From Spirochaetota bacterium (GTDB lineage Bacteria > Spirochaetota > Spirochaetia > Treponematales > UBA12059): a DNA stretch of 64,000 nt. The DNA is taken from assembly GCA_026398615.1 (NCBI GenBank), contig JAPLSN010000013.1, forward strand, positions 1 to 64,000. The letters are read 5' to 3'. The position numbers and the translations under genes were made by a program. This document shows, in pieces, positions 1-5,137 of this stretch (positions are counted from its first letter, which is position 1; every line of letters starts with the position of its first letter). The notes beneath the pieces are model-generated. The model made no database searches, was not told the DNA's origin, and worked only from the letters and a program-made list of their open reading frames with translations.

Positions 1-714
1 GCCGAAGCCGCCCCCGCCCAGCGGGCAGCCTACTTCGCGGCGGGCAAGCGCGCCAAGCCGACGCAGGCGGCGGGGAGCCTGGCGGTAAGCGCCGGGGCAA
101 AGGACGGGGCGGGCGAGGTGTTCATCGACGGGAAGAAGGCGGGGACAACGCCGCTGACCCTCAAGCTGCCGGAAGGGACCTACGGGCTCGAAGTGCGCTG
201 GGCGGATGCATATGTCCCCTTTGCGCAAAAGGCGACGGTTGTCGCAGGTCAGATGGCAACCGTCGCGGCGAAGAAAACAATCTTCACGGTCGGGGGCAAG
301 GGGCCTGCGGGCGGGTTGATTTTCTACGACAAGGGAAGCGTGAGCGACGGCTGGCGCTACCTGGAAGCGGCGCCCAGCGACCAGAGCGCCGGCATCCAGT
401 GGTACAACGGCAACTATATTGACATAAAAACCGGCACAGCCATCGGCACGGGCAGGGCAAACACGCAGGCAATCATCGCAGCGCAGGGAGCCGGGGACTA
501 TGCGGCCATCCTCTGCAAGAACCTCTCGATCAATGGTTTTTCCGACTGGTTCCTGCCCTCGAAGGACGAACTCAACCTGATGTACACGAACTTGAAGAAG
601 GCGGGTCTGGGCGGTTTCGGCTCAGGCTGGCTCTGGTCGTCCTCCCAGTACTACGGCTACTACGGCGCCTGGCGACAGAGGTTCTCCGTCGGCTATCAGG
701 ACTACAGCTACTAG
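1..714 (+). CDS. DGR target (variable) protein: PEGA domain plus C-type-lectin-fold/DUF1566-like domain, 5' truncated by window edge
   Basis: The frame is open from base 1, so the start and any signal peptide lie outside the window; 237 codons are visible. The first part is a PEGA domain (VFIDGKKAGTTPLTL, then LPEGTYGLEVRW), a small beta domain of surface and periplasmic proteins. From about base 295 follows a DUF1566/Lcl-like domain of the C-type-lectin fold family used by diversity-generating retroelements (GGLIFYDKG, GFSDWFLPSKDEL, WLWSSSQ). The last 38 codons lie in a variable repeat nearly identical to a template at 1409-1553. The stop TAG (712-714) faces template AAG; reading past it gives 12 more codons, ending AVRACRAF, then TAA at 751-753. 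That looks like the original end, so this allele is probably shortened by adenine mutagenesis. Likely role: a diversified ligand-binding envelope protein, by analogy with TvpA of Treponema denticola. Location is inferred. Confidence 0.88.
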   Translation, partial: AEAAPAQRAAYFAAGKRAKPTQAAGSLAVSAGAKDGAGEVFIDGKKAGTTPLTLKLPEGTYGLEVRWADAYVPFAQKATVVAGQMATVAAKKTIFTVGGKGPAGGLIFYDKGSVSDGWRYLEAAPSDQSAGIQWYNGNYIDIKTGTAIGTGRANTQAIIAAQGAGDYAAILCKNLSINGFSDWFLPSKDELNLMYTNLKKAGLGGFGSGWLWSSSQYYGYYGAWRQRFSVGYQDYSY

Positions 715-747
715 CGCGGCGGATGTGCCGTCAGGGCGTGTCGGGCC
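600..747 (+). repeat. DGR variable repeat (VR)
   Basis: 148 bases at the 3' end of the target gene match the template repeat at 1409-1553. Outside the AAC tract I count 18 differences, and about 6 more inside it; all fall at template adenines (A to T, G or C), with no change at template C, G or T. One 3-base length difference exists: the variable repeat has six codons (TAC TAC GGC TAC TAC GGC) where the template has five AAC codons. The 3' 21 bases (727-747) are identical to template 1533-1553 and are the likely initiation-of-mutagenic-homology region. The 5' limit is set where the first mismatch at a non-adenine template base occurs (599 against 1408). Confidence 0.95.
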
Positions 748-749
748 TT

Positions 750-773
750 TTAACCATTTAACCATTTAACCAT
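750..773 (+). repeat. Three perfect tandem copies of an 8-bp unit (ttaaccat) just after the variable repeat
   Basis: The unit occurs at 750-757, 758-765 and 766-773. The first copy contains the TAA that would end the target protein if the TAG at 712-714 were absent. The block is AT-rich in a GC-rich setting and lies between the homology end of the variable repeat and the hairpin at 784-808. Function unknown. Confidence 0.9.
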
Positions 774-783
774 TTTCCTGGGG

Positions 784-808
784 GTTCGGGGGGCGAAGCC
801 CCCCGAAC
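784..808 (+). promoter_or_regulatory. GC-rich hairpin/cruciform downstream of the DGR variable repeat
   Basis: A perfect 11-bp inverted repeat (784-794 with 798-808) closes a 3-base GAA loop. In the Bordetella phage DGR a hairpin or cruciform just after the variable repeat increases target recognition during retrohoming; this one is in the equivalent place, 36 bases past the end of homology. There is no T run on the plus strand, so a terminator is less likely. Confidence 0.7.
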
Positions 809-832
809 TTCCCGGAACCAGGGGGGCATGAA

Positions 833-1174
833 GTGGCGCTGTACTACGATCTGCCGGTTTTCAAGGACGTCTATAAGCTGACCCTCCTCCTCTTCACCCT
901 GACGCAGAATTTCGCCCGGGAGTACAAGTTCACTCTGGGACAGGACATGAAGCGTGACTGCCTTCAATTGGTACGAAGCATCTACCGGGCGAACAAGGCC
1001 ACGACGAAGGAGGAGTATCTCGAGAGGTTTCTGGATGATTTTGAAGTGCTCAAGCTCGAGGCGCGGCTCTGCGTCGACCTCAAGCTCATCACCATCAAGA
1101 AGCAGGCCGACCTGGCCCTGCTGATGGAGGGCATCGGAAAACAGATCACCGGGTGGCGCAATGCCAGCCGTTGA
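833..1174 (+). CDS. avd: Avd: DGR accessory variability determinant
   Basis: A 113-residue, almost all-helical protein of the four-helix-bundle Avd family, close to the 128 residues of the phage BPP-1 protein. Avd forms a pentamer that binds the reverse transcriptase and template RNA and is needed for mutagenic retrohoming. Its place between target gene and template repeat is the usual DGR order. Recognisable segments are YDLPVFKDVYKLTLLLFTLT, a basic central stretch (SIYRANKATTKEEYLERFLD), and IGKQITGW at the end. The start is GTG at 833, the only sensible start in frame, preceded by a G-rich ribosome-binding stretch (821-826); the nearby ATG at 828 is in another frame. Assignment rests on length, helical pattern and position rather than on a catalytic motif. 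Confidence 0.85.
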   Translation: MALYYDLPVFKDVYKLTLLLFTLTQNFAREYKFTLGQDMKRDCLQLVRSIYRANKATTKEEYLERFLDDFEVLKLEARLCVDLKLITIKKQADLALLMEGIGKQITGWRNASR

Positions 1175-1196
1175 GGGATGGGGTTTGCCCCGTCCC
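1175..1196 (+). promoter_or_regulatory. Hairpin directly after the avd stop, at the 5' side of the template leader
   Basis: 1175-1183 pairs with 1188-1196 (9 bp, one G-U) around a TTTG loop. There is no T run after it. It opens the roughly 230-base stretch between avd and the template repeat, in which no protein-like reading frame is seen; this stretch probably forms the 5' part of the structured DGR template RNA (inference). Confidence 0.5.
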
Positions 1197-1408
1197 GCCG
1201 GAATCCCTCACGTTGTCTCGCTGATCGCCGCGGCGCCTGGCGCCACGACGCGGAGCGTAACGACGCGCGGGAGCGAGCAAGGCTTCGTTCAAAGGCGGTC
1301 GGGGGACTGCCTGCGCACCGGGGGCGACTGCGTATCGCCCCGCTCCCGGAAAGCGGCAGTACAACAGGATCGCCGCGGGAATCCCCGCGGTCATCGATAC
1401 ATCCCGAC

Positions 1409-1553
1409 AACAGGTCTGGGCGGTTTCGGCTCAGGCTGGCTCTGGTCGTCCTCCCAGAACAACAACAACAACGCCTGGAAACAGAGATTCTCCGACGGCA
1501 ATCAGGACAACAACAACAAGAACGACAAATATGCCGTCAGGGCGTGTCGGGCC
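1409..1553 (+). repeat. DGR template repeat (TR)
   Basis: 145 bases, non-coding in themselves, that serve as the RNA template for adenine-directed mutagenesis of the variable repeat at 600-747. Read in the target frame it gives GLGGFGSGWLWSSSQ, then five Asn codons (AAC, 1458-1472), AWKQRFSDGNQDNNNKNDK and YAVRACRA. The AAC codons can never become stops under A-to-N change, but AAA (1479, 1527), AGA (1485) and AAG (1518) can; the AAG became TAG in the present variable repeat. It lies between avd and the reverse transcriptase. Confidence 0.95.
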
Positions 1554-1565
1554 CTTGAACGGGGT

Positions 1566-1636
1566 CGCCACCGGCATGGCCGGTGGCGCTGCCACCGGCG
1601 TCGCGGAACCATCGTCGACGCCGGTGGCGTTTTTTT
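1566..1636 (+). terminator. Four mutually complementary arms ending in a T7 run: candidate attenuator between TR and the RT gene
   Basis: Arm 1 (1567-1575, GCCACCGGC) pairs with arm 2 (1579-1587, GCCGGTGGC). Arm 3 (1591-1603) pairs perfectly over 13 bp with arm 4 (1616-1628) and is followed by G and seven Ts (1630-1636), a textbook intrinsic terminator. Arm 2 can instead pair with arm 3 (3-base loop), and arm 1 with arm 4, which would remove the terminator. The RT start codon lies five bases after the T run and has no clear ribosome-binding site. The arms are seen directly; the switching role is inferred. Confidence 0.7.
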
Positions 1637-1641
1637 GCCCG

Positions 1642-2919
1642 ATGAGTGAAGCGAGCCCGGAAACCTTCTCCCTCGAGGAGGTCTTTGAAGCCTACCACAG
1701 CTGTCGACGCCACAAGCGGAGCAAGGCCAGCGCCCTGGCTTTCGAGGTCGACCTCGAATCCAATCTCATCGAACTGTGGCGGGAACTGAACTCAGGCGGC
1801 TGGAAACCCGGTCCCTCGGCGGTCTTCATCGTCGAAAAACCGGTCAAGCGGGAGATCTTCGCCGCGGGTTTCCGCGACCGGGTAGTCCACCACGTCCTCA
1901 TCCACCGCCTCAACCCGTATTTCGAGAAGACCTTCATATACGACAGCTATTCCTGCCGCGTCGGCAAAGGCACCCACTTCGGGATCGAGCGGGTCAAGCG
2001 CTTTGTACGCCGATGTTCCGACAACTACACGCATGACGCCTGGGTTCTCAAACTGGATATCCGCGGCTTTTTCATGAACATCAGCCGGCCCCTCCTCGTG
2101 GAGCTGCTCGGGGATTTCCTGGCCCGGCGCTACCCCCATCCCGACCGGGGAGCCCTGCTTGCGCTCTGCCGCAACCTCGTCCTGAACGATCCCCTTGTCG
2201 GCTGCGTGACGAAGAGCCCGCCGGAACTCTGGGACGGTCTTCCGGCCGAAAAGAGCCTTTTCGGGGTTCCAGCAGATCGCGGACTCCCCATCGGCAATCT
2301 GACTTCGCAAGTCTTCGCCAACTTCTACCTCGATGGCCTCGACCACTTCTGCAAGCACGAGCTCGGCCTTCGGTACTATGGCCGCTACGTCGACGACCTC
2401 GTCATCGTCCACGAAGACAGGGATAGGCTCGCCGCCCTCGTCCCCCGGATCCGCGACTGGCTCGCCCGCGAACGGCTTCTCGACCTTCATCCCCGTAAAA
2501 TCCGGCTTCAGCACTATGCGAAGGGAGTACCCTTCCTCGGCGCCTACATCCTGCCCGGGCGGGTGTACCCCGGCCATCGACTGAGGCGGAATTTCCGCGA
2601 CGTGATCGACCGGCACGACGCGGTCGTGGACGATCATGCCCACGACGGCGATGAGATACGCTCGTTCCGCTCCTCGATCAACTCCTACCTGGGCATCCTG
2701 AAGCACGCGAACTCATGGCGTTTCAGGGTCGGCCTGCTCAGGGCGCGGCTGTCCCCCTGGTGGAAATGCCGCTTTGTGCTGCCCGAGGGGGCGGAAAAGG
2801 TGCTGAAGCGCCCTGAGGGCTATCATGGGAACGTTCGAAAGCGGGTGAAGATTCGCCGACTTGCAGAGCGCCCGGTGGAAGTATCGTCCGAAGAATCGGA
2901 GTCGACGGACAATAGATGA
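1642..2919 (+). CDS. DGR reverse transcriptase
   Basis: A 425-residue reverse transcriptase that copies the template repeat RNA into adenine-mutagenised cDNA. Motifs from the ATG at 1642: KLDIRGFF with the first catalytic Asp at 139; GLPIGNLTSQ at about 215-223, containing the IGxxxSQ signature that separates DGR enzymes from other retroelement RTs; the catalytic YVDD at 249-252; and HPRKIRLQ with GVPFLGAYI following. There is no RNase H or maturase-like extension, as usual for DGR RTs; a basic C-terminal tail (KVLKRPEGYHGNVRKRVKIR) follows. The frame stays open upstream to ATG 1531 inside the template and ATG 1576 in a hairpin loop, but family similarity begins after 1642. No good Shine-Dalgarno sequence precedes it. 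Partner: Avd (833-1174). Confidence 0.95.
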   Translation: MSEASPETFSLEEVFEAYHSCRRHKRSKASALAFEVDLESNLIELWRELNSGGWKPGPSAVFIVEKPVKREIFAAGFRDRVVHHVLIHRLNPYFEKTFIYDSYSCRVGKGTHFGIERVKRFVRRCSDNYTHDAWVLKLDIRGFFMNISRPLLVELLGDFLARRYPHPDRGALLALCRNLVLNDPLVGCVTKSPPELWDGLPAEKSLFGVPADRGLPIGNLTSQVFANFYLDGLDHFCKHELGLRYYGRYVDDLVIVHEDRDRLAALVPRIRDWLARERLLDLHPRKIRLQHYAKGVPFLGAYILPGRVYPGHRLRRNFRDVIDRHDAVVDDHAHDGDEIRSFRSSINSYLGILKHANSWRFRVGLLRARLSPWWKCRFVLPEGAEKVLKRPEGYHGNVRKRVKIRRLAERPVEVSSEESESTDNR

Positions 2920-3313
2920 AGGTTGGGGGGCAGACTGGGATGCGCGCGATTGCCAGACCGTTCGGGAATCAGCCAACCTTCACCATGCGATCCAACGGGG
3001 CGGTGCCGCAGGCGCGGAAACCCGGATAGAGGACTGGGAGCCGCCCGATCCATTTCTGTCGATGCCGCCGCTTTTGGGGAAGAAGGACCGATGTACAACG
3101 GGTTTATCGGCATCGAACTCCATTGTGATGTTTGGCTCTTCGCGGACTTGAGTGGGTGAAATCCATTTCGAGCAGGTAAAAACGGCTAGAACCGTCTACG
3201 AAATCGCGGGAAGTCCATTCACCTGCCCTCTTCACCTTCCTCCTCTTCCCCCCTCCGCGTCCCTGCGGCACCGCGTGGGGCGTTCCTGGAGAGCATCCCA
3301 CACGGAACCGCGG
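2920..3313. other. Stretch without a supported gene between the DGR and glmS
   Basis: About 390 bases. Short open frames exist but their products have no domain pattern or credible ribosome-binding site. No attachment site or direct repeat marking the edge of the retroelement was seen. No T-run terminator for the leftward glmS transcript was recognised. Confidence 0.6.
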
Positions 3314-5137
3314 TCATTCCACCGTGACGCTCTTGGCGAGGTTCCTCGGCTGGTCCACGTCGCGGCCAAGCTCAAGCGCCGTGAAGTAGGCGAACAGCTG
3401 CAACGGCACGACCATGGTGAAGGGCTGGAAGCGGGGATCGACCTTCGGGACCGGTATACAGTCATCCGCTATGGAAACCACTTCCGCGTCGCCCTCGTCG
3501 GCCACGGCGATGATGGGGCCGCCGCGGGCCTTGATTTCCTTCATGTTCGAAATCGTCTTTTCCCTGAGCTGGTCGCCGGGCACGAGGAAGACGCTCGGCG
3601 CCTCGGGGCTCACGAGCGCTATCGGGCCGTGCTTGATCTCGCCGGAGGCGTAGCCTTCCGCGTGGATGTAGGAGATCTCCTTGAGCTTGAGGGCGCCTTC
3701 GAGGGCGATCGGATGGAGGATGCCGCGCCCGAGGAACATGAAATCGCGGAAGCGCGCGTACTTCTTGGCGATGGTCTGGATGCGGTCGCGGAGAAGGAGG
3801 GTCTTCCGGACGGCTTCGGGGACGGACTTGAGGGCTTCCATGAACAGGATCCCCTCGTGGTGCGACATGTCGTGCATGCGCGCGAGAGTCAGCGTCAGGA
3901 GGTAGAAGGCCACCAGCTGGCTCGTGAAGGCCTTGGTCGAGGCTACCGCGATCTCCGGGCCGGAATGCACGTAGATCCCGCCGTCGGATTCCCGCGCGAT
4001 GGTCGACCCGACGACGTTGCAGATCCCGAGGACGGTGCCTCCGCGCCGCTTGATCTCGCGCATGGCGTAGAGGGTATCCGCCGTTTCGCCGGACTGCGAC
4101 GCCGCGATGTAGAGGCTGTTGGCTTCCACGACGGGGTTGCGATACCGGAGTTCGCTCGCGAGCTCGGCGCTCGCGGGGATCCTCGTGACGCTTTCGAGGA
4201 GCCATGAGCCGACGAGGCCGGCGTGCCAGCTCGTGCCAGCCGCGATGACGCGGACGCGTTCGACCGCGTGAAGCTCCTTCCGCGAGAGGTTGAGGCCGCC
4301 GAGCTTGGCGGTTCCGTACTCGGGTTCGAGACGGCCTCCGAAGGCCCTGGCTATCGATTCCGGCTGCTCGAAGATCTCCTTTTCCATGTAGCAGGAAAAG
4401 CCATCTTTTTCGATGGCGTCGAGCTGCCAGGCGATCTCGTTGATCTTCGGGTCCACGGGGTTGTCGTCCGCGTCGCTGACCCTGAAGTCGGCCGGCGTCA
4501 TCGACACGACCTCGCCGTCGTTGAGGTAGACGACCTGCCTGGTGTGGGCGAGCATCGCGGTGACGTCGCTGGCGAGCAGCATCTCCCCGTCGCCGACGCC
4601 GATGACGAGGGGGCTGCCGTTCCGGGCGCCCACGATGCGGCCGGGTTCGTCCGCGTGGATGACCGCGATCCCGTAGGTGCCCTTGAGGTGGCGCAGGGCC
4701 GACTTCACCGCGCGCTCGAGGTCGCCCTCGTAGAGGCGGGCGATGAGCTGCGCAATGACTTCGCTGTCGGTTTCGCTGGAAAAGCGCACGCCGTCCTTTT
4801 CCAGTTTTTCCTTCAGCGCGCCGTAGTTTTCGATGATGCCGTTGTGGACGATGGCGACCTTGCCCGACGCGTCGAGGTGGGGATGCGCGTTGGCGTCCGT
4901 GACGCCGCCATGGGTCGCCCAGCGGGTGTGTCCAATGCCGCAGGTGCCGGGCATGTCCCTCGGGACGGCCGCACGCAGCTCCGCGATCTTCCCTTTTTTC
5001 TTGATTACGGCGAGCGCACCGTGATCCTGCACCGCTACCCCGGCCGAGTCGTAGCCCCGGTACTCGAGGCGCTTCAAGCCCTCGACGAGGATGCGCGAGG
5101 CCTGCCTGGGCCCCGTGTAGCCGACGATTCCGCACAT
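3314..5137 (-). CDS. glmS: Glutamine-fructose-6-phosphate aminotransferase (isomerizing)
   Basis: 607 residues, the family's usual size (609 in E. coli). It makes glucosamine 6-phosphate from fructose 6-phosphate and glutamine, the first step toward UDP-GlcNAc for peptidoglycan. The N-terminal Ntn glutaminase domain begins MCGIVGYTG with nucleophile Cys2; GHTRWATHGG and NGIIEN are its conserved segments. Two SIS sugar-isomerase domains follow (AAGTSWHAG; SQSGETADT), and the protein ends DVDQPRNLAKSVTVE, the typical C-terminus. ATG 5137 is chosen because Cys must follow the initiator Met; GGAAGGAAGG precedes it. The longer upstream frame is not protein-like. Cytoplasmic. Confidence 0.97.
   Translation of the reverse strand: MCGIVGYTGPRQASRILVEGLKRLEYRGYDSAGVAVQDHGALAVIKKKGKIAELRAAVPRDMPGTCGIGHTRWATHGGVTDANAHPHLDASGKVAIVHNGIIENYGALKEKLEKDGVRFSSETDSEVIAQLIARLYEGDLERAVKSALRHLKGTYGIAVIHADEPGRIVGARNGSPLVIGVGDGEMLLASDVTAMLAHTRQVVYLNDGEVVSMTPADFRVSDADDNPVDPKINEIAWQLDAIEKDGFSCYMEKEIFEQPESIARAFGGRLEPEYGTAKLGGLNLSRKELHAVERVRVIAAGTSWHAGLVGSWLLESVTRIPASAELASELRYRNPVVEANSLYIAASQSGETADTLYAMREIKRRGGTVLGICNVVGSTIARESDGGIYVHSGPEIAVASTKAFTSQLVAFYLLTLTLARMHDMSHHEGILFMEALKSVPEAVRKTLLLRDRIQTIAKKYARFRDFMFLGRGILHPIALEGALKLKEISYIHAEGYASGEIKHGPIALVSPEAPSVFLVPGDQLREKTISNMKEIKARGGPIIAVADEGDAEVVSIADDCIPVPKVDPRFQPFTMVVPLQLFAYFTALELGRDVDQPRNLAKSVTVE

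Follow-up and report, generated by a model that had tools for sequence, protein, structure and literature searches.

Work on diversity-generating retroelements (DGRs) stresses that the codons of the template repeat (TR), of the AAY kind, avoid stops. Among the described systems closest to the one reported here, the DGR of Bordetella phage BPP-1 (mtd-avd-TR-brt) needs a structure after the variable repeat (VR) for target recognition, and it shares with our locus the gene order, the families of the Avd accessory protein and the reverse transcriptase (RT), adenine-only TR/VR differences, an invariant 3' end, and a hairpin soon after the VR (PMC3240598). Unlike BPP-1, the element described here is chromosomal, has a DUF1566-type target, and bears a stop codon in its VR; its hairpin displays a GAA loop closed by C-G, whereas that of BPP-1 has a GRNA tetraloop. 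Of the DGR target domains that have a name, DUF1566 is the most common (PMC6642488).

Layout and state of the element

The DNA analyzed here (the window) comprises the first 64,000 bases, from base 1, of the 79,992-base contig C3 in a 43-contig draft assembly of 3.38 Mb. Target, VR, hairpin, Avd, TR, and RT, i.e., all the parts named in a preliminary description of the sequence, were found in that order on the plus strand within positions 1-2919 (Table 1). The two motifs that it had attributed to the RT are likewise there: the ORF bears IGNLTSQ and YVDD, which fit the [ILV]GNxxSQ and YxDD forms of DGR-kind RTs, and RTs related to this one adjoin TR/VR pairs in other genomes. The accessory protein qualifies as an Avd by a bAvd match above the Pfam cut-off; with the NCBIfam Avd model it yields an E value of 1.7e-17, under the cut-off of that model. 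The 2.9-kb locus is a genuine chromosomal DGR of a spirochaete and, as such, a further example of an already known kind of element. A plasmid origin was rejected upon finding no match, and a phage origin was rejected because phage RT relatives all fall below 60% identity and the downstream neighbors look chromosomal. Rfam searches gave no match in the window.

Table 1. Features of the DGR locus in the window (plus strand)
Feature	Coordinates	Strand	Basis or sequence
Target gene, 3' part: PEGA and Lcl_C (DUF1566) lectin-fold domain	1..714	+	ORF; PEGA E 2.7e-7, Lcl_C E 2.9e-5, PHROG 4245 E 3.4e-32
VR, 144 nt, exceeding the TR by one codon	604..747	+	Adenine-only differences to TR
TAG stop in VR, opposite TR codon AAG	712..714	+	Codon alignment; natural stop is TAA 751-753
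VR 3' end, invariant, GC-rich, IMH-like; same as TR 1533-1553	727..747	+	Ungapped match
Hairpin 3' of VR: 11-bp stem, GAA loop	784..808	+	Stem search; fold z-score -5.2 for 775-820
Avd accessory protein, GTG start, 113 aa	833..1174	+	bAvd E 8.8e-19 (Pfam), PHROG 3206 E 3.3e-24
TR, 141 nt	1413..1553	+	Repeat alignment to VR
TR lysine codon AAG, conserved among DUF1566-type TRs	1518..1520	+	TR/VR survey
Stretch of the TR with AAG among AAC codons			AACAACAAGAACAAC
Spacer between TR and RT: two strong stem-loops, with a terminator-like run of seven T after the second	1554..1641	+	Fold -57.4 kcal/mol, z -6.0
RT, DGR type; start at 1642 inferred, ORF opens at 1531	1642..2919	+	RVT_1 E 1.4e-18, PHROG RT E 2.4e-97

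Over 137 aligned columns, the VR differs from the TR at 21 of the 39 template adenines and at none of the 98 other positions (Fisher P = 2e-14), so that the pair diverges at template adenines only; the final 21 bases are identical in both repeats. The lack of any non-adenine difference implies either that homing was recent or that both copies are constrained. The extra VR codon sits inside an (AAC)5 run of the TR, and slippage on this AAC repeat or the later loss of a TR unit would explain it. VRs longer than their TR by one codon also occur in L045, in one VR of L046 (2395-2478), and apparently in L128, while no shorter VR was noted with the adenine-aware scan, which was not designed for indels. 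The L046 locus (G085:C40:36000-49263, reverse strand) harbors two VRs in a single target ORF of ~1135 codons, at oriented positions 2395-2478 and 3310-3431, both of which match one TR with adenine-only differences.

Downstream of the VR, the window holds a hairpin of the kind expected for a DGR, and several relatives show stems about 30-45 nt 3' of the VR. The spacer between TR and RT also folds very strongly and ends in its run of T residues. Hairpins 3' of the TR were also observed in L042, L043, L046, L070, and L106, some of them with a T-rich tail, so that the TR may be transcribed as an RNA with an end of its own.

The preliminary description called the element complete and mentioned neither the cut at the contig start, nor the in-frame TAG, nor the extra VR codon. 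This holds for Avd, TR, and RT, which look intact in sequence, and fails for the target, which is cut by the contig start and whose VR is ended by the TAG. The suggested search of the whole 3.38-Mb assembly with the TR disclosed no further VR, its hits being chance ones of 14-25 bases, and the assembly likewise contained no second RT match. The nearest relative found is the metagenome-assembled genome of uncultured Spirochaetes bacterium Ja_bin-4832 (G025), of the same order. Its RT differs from that of the window with a dN of 0.17 and a dS of 1.9, which is near saturation (ratio about 0.09), and dN/dS is 0.04 over 42 codons of the Avd N-terminus. Both genes of the window are open and, by these values, under purifying selection. 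Two broken DGR copies related to that of the window, L063 and L062, were noticed in G025. In L063, the caspase-Lcl_C target is open, but Avd is truncated, the RT is deleted, and no TR lies close by; L062 has a full RT beside half a TR. A disrupted RT beside an identical VR in a close relative had been named beforehand as evidence against this description; in this nearest relative the RT is broken but the VR is different.

A stop codon within the variable repeat

In the frame of the target, the TR codons GAC AAC AAC AAC AAG AAC GAC AAA TAT GCC GTC AGG face the VR codons GAC TAC AGC TAC TAG CGC GGC GGA TGT GCC GTC AGG. A single A-to-T change in AAG yields the TAG, 13 codons ahead of the natural TAA. 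Use of TAG as a sense codon is unlikely, with 15 of the 79 long ORFs of the window (a set that includes antisense ORFs) ending in TAG. The position of the VR and the lectin fold fit a DGR target, in an ORF that runs off the contig on its 5' side and terminates at this stop. Lcl_C scores 24.8 bits as encoded and 32.4 bits when read past the TAG, against a Pfam cut-off of 34.9; the homology is clear from the alignment despite these sub-cut-off scores, and the Lcl_C domain of the close relative L063 exceeds the same cut-off with 41.6 bits. For structure prediction we modeled the L063 domain, 71% identical to that of the window, from a 16-sequence alignment. The model has a mean pLDDT of 80.5, rising to about 90 or higher across the VR, and its best solved match is the C-terminal domain of Legionella Lcl (8q4e, E 2.8e-6). 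The stop position corresponds to K158 of this model, after which only the strands 162-164 and 167-169 remain. The TAG is therefore predicted to remove the last two beta-strands of the lectin domain. As sequenced, the target protein is probably cut short by the stop, and the truncated form is probably inactive.

The target ORF is open at the contig start, its 5' part lying off C3. Contig end C8 (G000:C8:1-2147, also L064, minus strand) carries a caspase gene frameshifted in its coiled coil and matches window positions 1-235 with 97% identity; the 8 mismatches fall in the first 156 bases of the overlap, and the last 79 are identical. C8, a near copy of the middle part of the target, bears two deletions, one in the coiled coil and one of a single base, and may be a strain variant or a paralogue. 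Because of those 8 mismatches, C8 need not be the target gene itself, and despite the agreement over the following 79 bases it was not accepted as simply extending the target in the 5' direction. A further paralogue, on C24, is open over 857 codons and has a caspase-coiled coil-PEGA-Lcl_C architecture. The Peptidase_C14 domain found in the C24 paralogue, in C8, and in the L063 target suggests that the target of the window also bears a caspase N-terminus. The paralogues on C24, C18, and C23 were rejected as further VR carriers, as they have no TR match and no lysine at the site discussed below.

We consider it probable, though by a good way not certain, that the DGR was recently active and that this target allele was ended by its own homing mutation, AAG to TAG, and now awaits selection or replacement by a new round. 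By analogy with BPP-1, the TR RNA would be copied by the RT with Avd, with adenines being miscopied, and the cDNA would replace the 3' end of the target, with the invariant GC-rich end and the hairpin after the VR serving as guides. A recent homing event would then have turned the TR-encoded AAG into TAG, leaving an allele whose target lacks the last two lectin-domain strands. Variants losing the lysine would be removed by selection, and the genome would have been sampled while this allele was still present, ahead of its loss to selection or of a new VR from a further round of homing. The window would thus provide a natural VR whose stop was written by the mutagenesis itself. Several observations weigh against this explanation: the assembled sequence is a consensus, and the population behind it may be mixed, the 5' end of the target is unassembled, the related contig end C8 is frameshifted, and the DGR copies of the nearest relative are broken, which fits decay as well.

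Such early decay, with a target long dead through upstream frameshifts plus the TAG and a DGR no longer serving it, looks doubtful but retains some weight. It would account for the coiled-coil and one-base deletions in the near copy on C8 and for the broken state of both DGRs of the nearest relative, L063 and L062, as described above. Against it stand the agreement of TR and VR at all 98 non-adenine positions and the open RT and Avd, which differ from their counterparts in the relative mainly by synonymous changes; moreover, the lesions on C8 lie in a sequence that, given its 8 mismatches to the window, need not be the same gene.

It is quite improbable that the TAG is a minor variant or an assembler chimera arising from a hypervariable VR population. 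The assembly is indeed a draft in 43 contigs, and C3 breaks inside the target next to a near-identical branch, a place where assemblers join variants; yet the break occurs at the opposite end of the ORF, more than 350 bases ahead of the VR, and all VR changes fall at template adenines, as in a real homing product. Recent homing remains our preferred explanation of the stop.

Stops and a retained lysine in related variable repeats

RT searches covered three sets of genomes that partly overlap (197 relatives, 394 at the order level, and 393 at the phylum level), and most RT loci examined showed a TR/VR pair in the adenine-aware scan; pattern scans of viral contigs added 31 TR/VR pairs. The preliminary description had anticipated VR variation at template adenines among strains or within a population. 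Such variation is evident across dozens of related DGRs, i.e., between elements. Among 73 spirochaete and viral TR/VR pairs, including that of the window, an internal VR stop occurs in the window only, while about 7.7 stops would be expected without selection over the 73 pairs from the observed A-to-N spectrum, a rough number given that this spectrum was taken from surviving VRs. The predicted nonsense risk of the window TR is 0.32 per homing event, the second highest in the survey (median, 0.09). Four loci required specific treatment. In L050, a change of AAA to TAA at the ragged repeat end was taken as the natural stop of the target and trimmed from the stop survey. L151, with its site located in the TR itself, and L045 were left out of the stop survey and kept in the lysine counts, whereas L128, whose VR is one codon out of register, was left out of both. 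A bias of the enzyme may contribute to the rarity of stops, by analogy with BPP-1 cDNA, in which stops from AAA/AAG amount to about 1% instead of the expected 6-7% (PMC12875486).

Lcl_C-type spirochaete TRs carry the AAG inside an NNNNKNN pattern. In 42 DUF1566-type spirochaete and viral pairs, the VR codon facing this AAG is AAG in 39, GAG in 2 (L133 and L204), and TAG in 1 (the window). By comparison, the same TRs keep 19.5% of their AAY codons and 1 of 16 other AAR codons (binomial P about 1e-24, Fisher P 4e-10); these P values are too small, since some viral TRs are near copies and the pairs are not fully independent, although each VR has its own changes. Most viral TRs were picked by an AAG-containing pattern, whereas the VRs were not. 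Retention at codon offsets from -2 to +2 is 0.17, 0.22, 0.93, 0.28, and 0.12, and is thus confined to one codon. The VR of L063 also has the lysine, and the non-DGR paralogues of the window genome are without it. AAR triplets are the only codons for lysine, and no choice among them could shield such a residue within a TR if it were required. On our interpretation, the AAG would encode a selected lysine whose codon is unable to avoid mutable adenines. A literature search of partial coverage found no paper stating this pattern.

Sparing of the lysine codon by the copying machinery, through sequence or RNA structure and not protein selection, with the window as a rare leak, is very unlikely: the limitation of retention to one codon in the DGRs of many hosts and the deficit of AAA/AAG-derived stops in BPP-1 cDNA (PMC12875486) would fit it, but the codon does mutate (to TAG in the window and to GAG in L133 and L204), 15 of the 16 AAG/AAA codons at other sites of these TRs are altered, and codons one triplet off mutate normally.

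A broader interpretation, which we advance as speculation and deem rather unlikely to hold as a whole, is that DUF1566-type targets exempt one lysine from diversification. Each round of homing would then endanger a required residue, and dead or truncated targets would arise continually; the DGR would diversify its target while also having an inherent off-state that can be reversed, in which the window was caught. The lysine survey suggests why stop-bearing VR alleles are rarely seen. If selection keeps the lysine, its retention measures the cost of mutagenic homing; if template protection spares it, the pattern reveals something new about the RT. Both possibilities are testable with existing laboratory reporter systems, and this one-codon exemption is the part of our findings worth following.

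Comparison with known systems

The TvpA DGR of Treponema denticola resembles that of the window in its spirochaete host, its lectin-fold target, and the presence of lysine codons in its TRs (PMC4891356). The lysine codons of TvpA are, however, reported as hypervariable, whereas almost every DUF1566-type relative studied here keeps one particular lysine codon. Caspase-bearing DGR targets of cyanobacteria (PMC7517822) and the conflict-system DGRs of multicellular bacteria (PMC10907252) share Peptidase_C14 with the L063 target and the C24 paralogue; unlike in those caspase-bearing targets, the caspase domain of the window target is a putative one, its N-terminus lying off the contig. DUF1566/Lcl_C-target DGRs of bacteria and phages have in common with the window both the target domain and the NNNNKNN pattern of the TR, and among those surveyed the window alone carries a stop in its VR.
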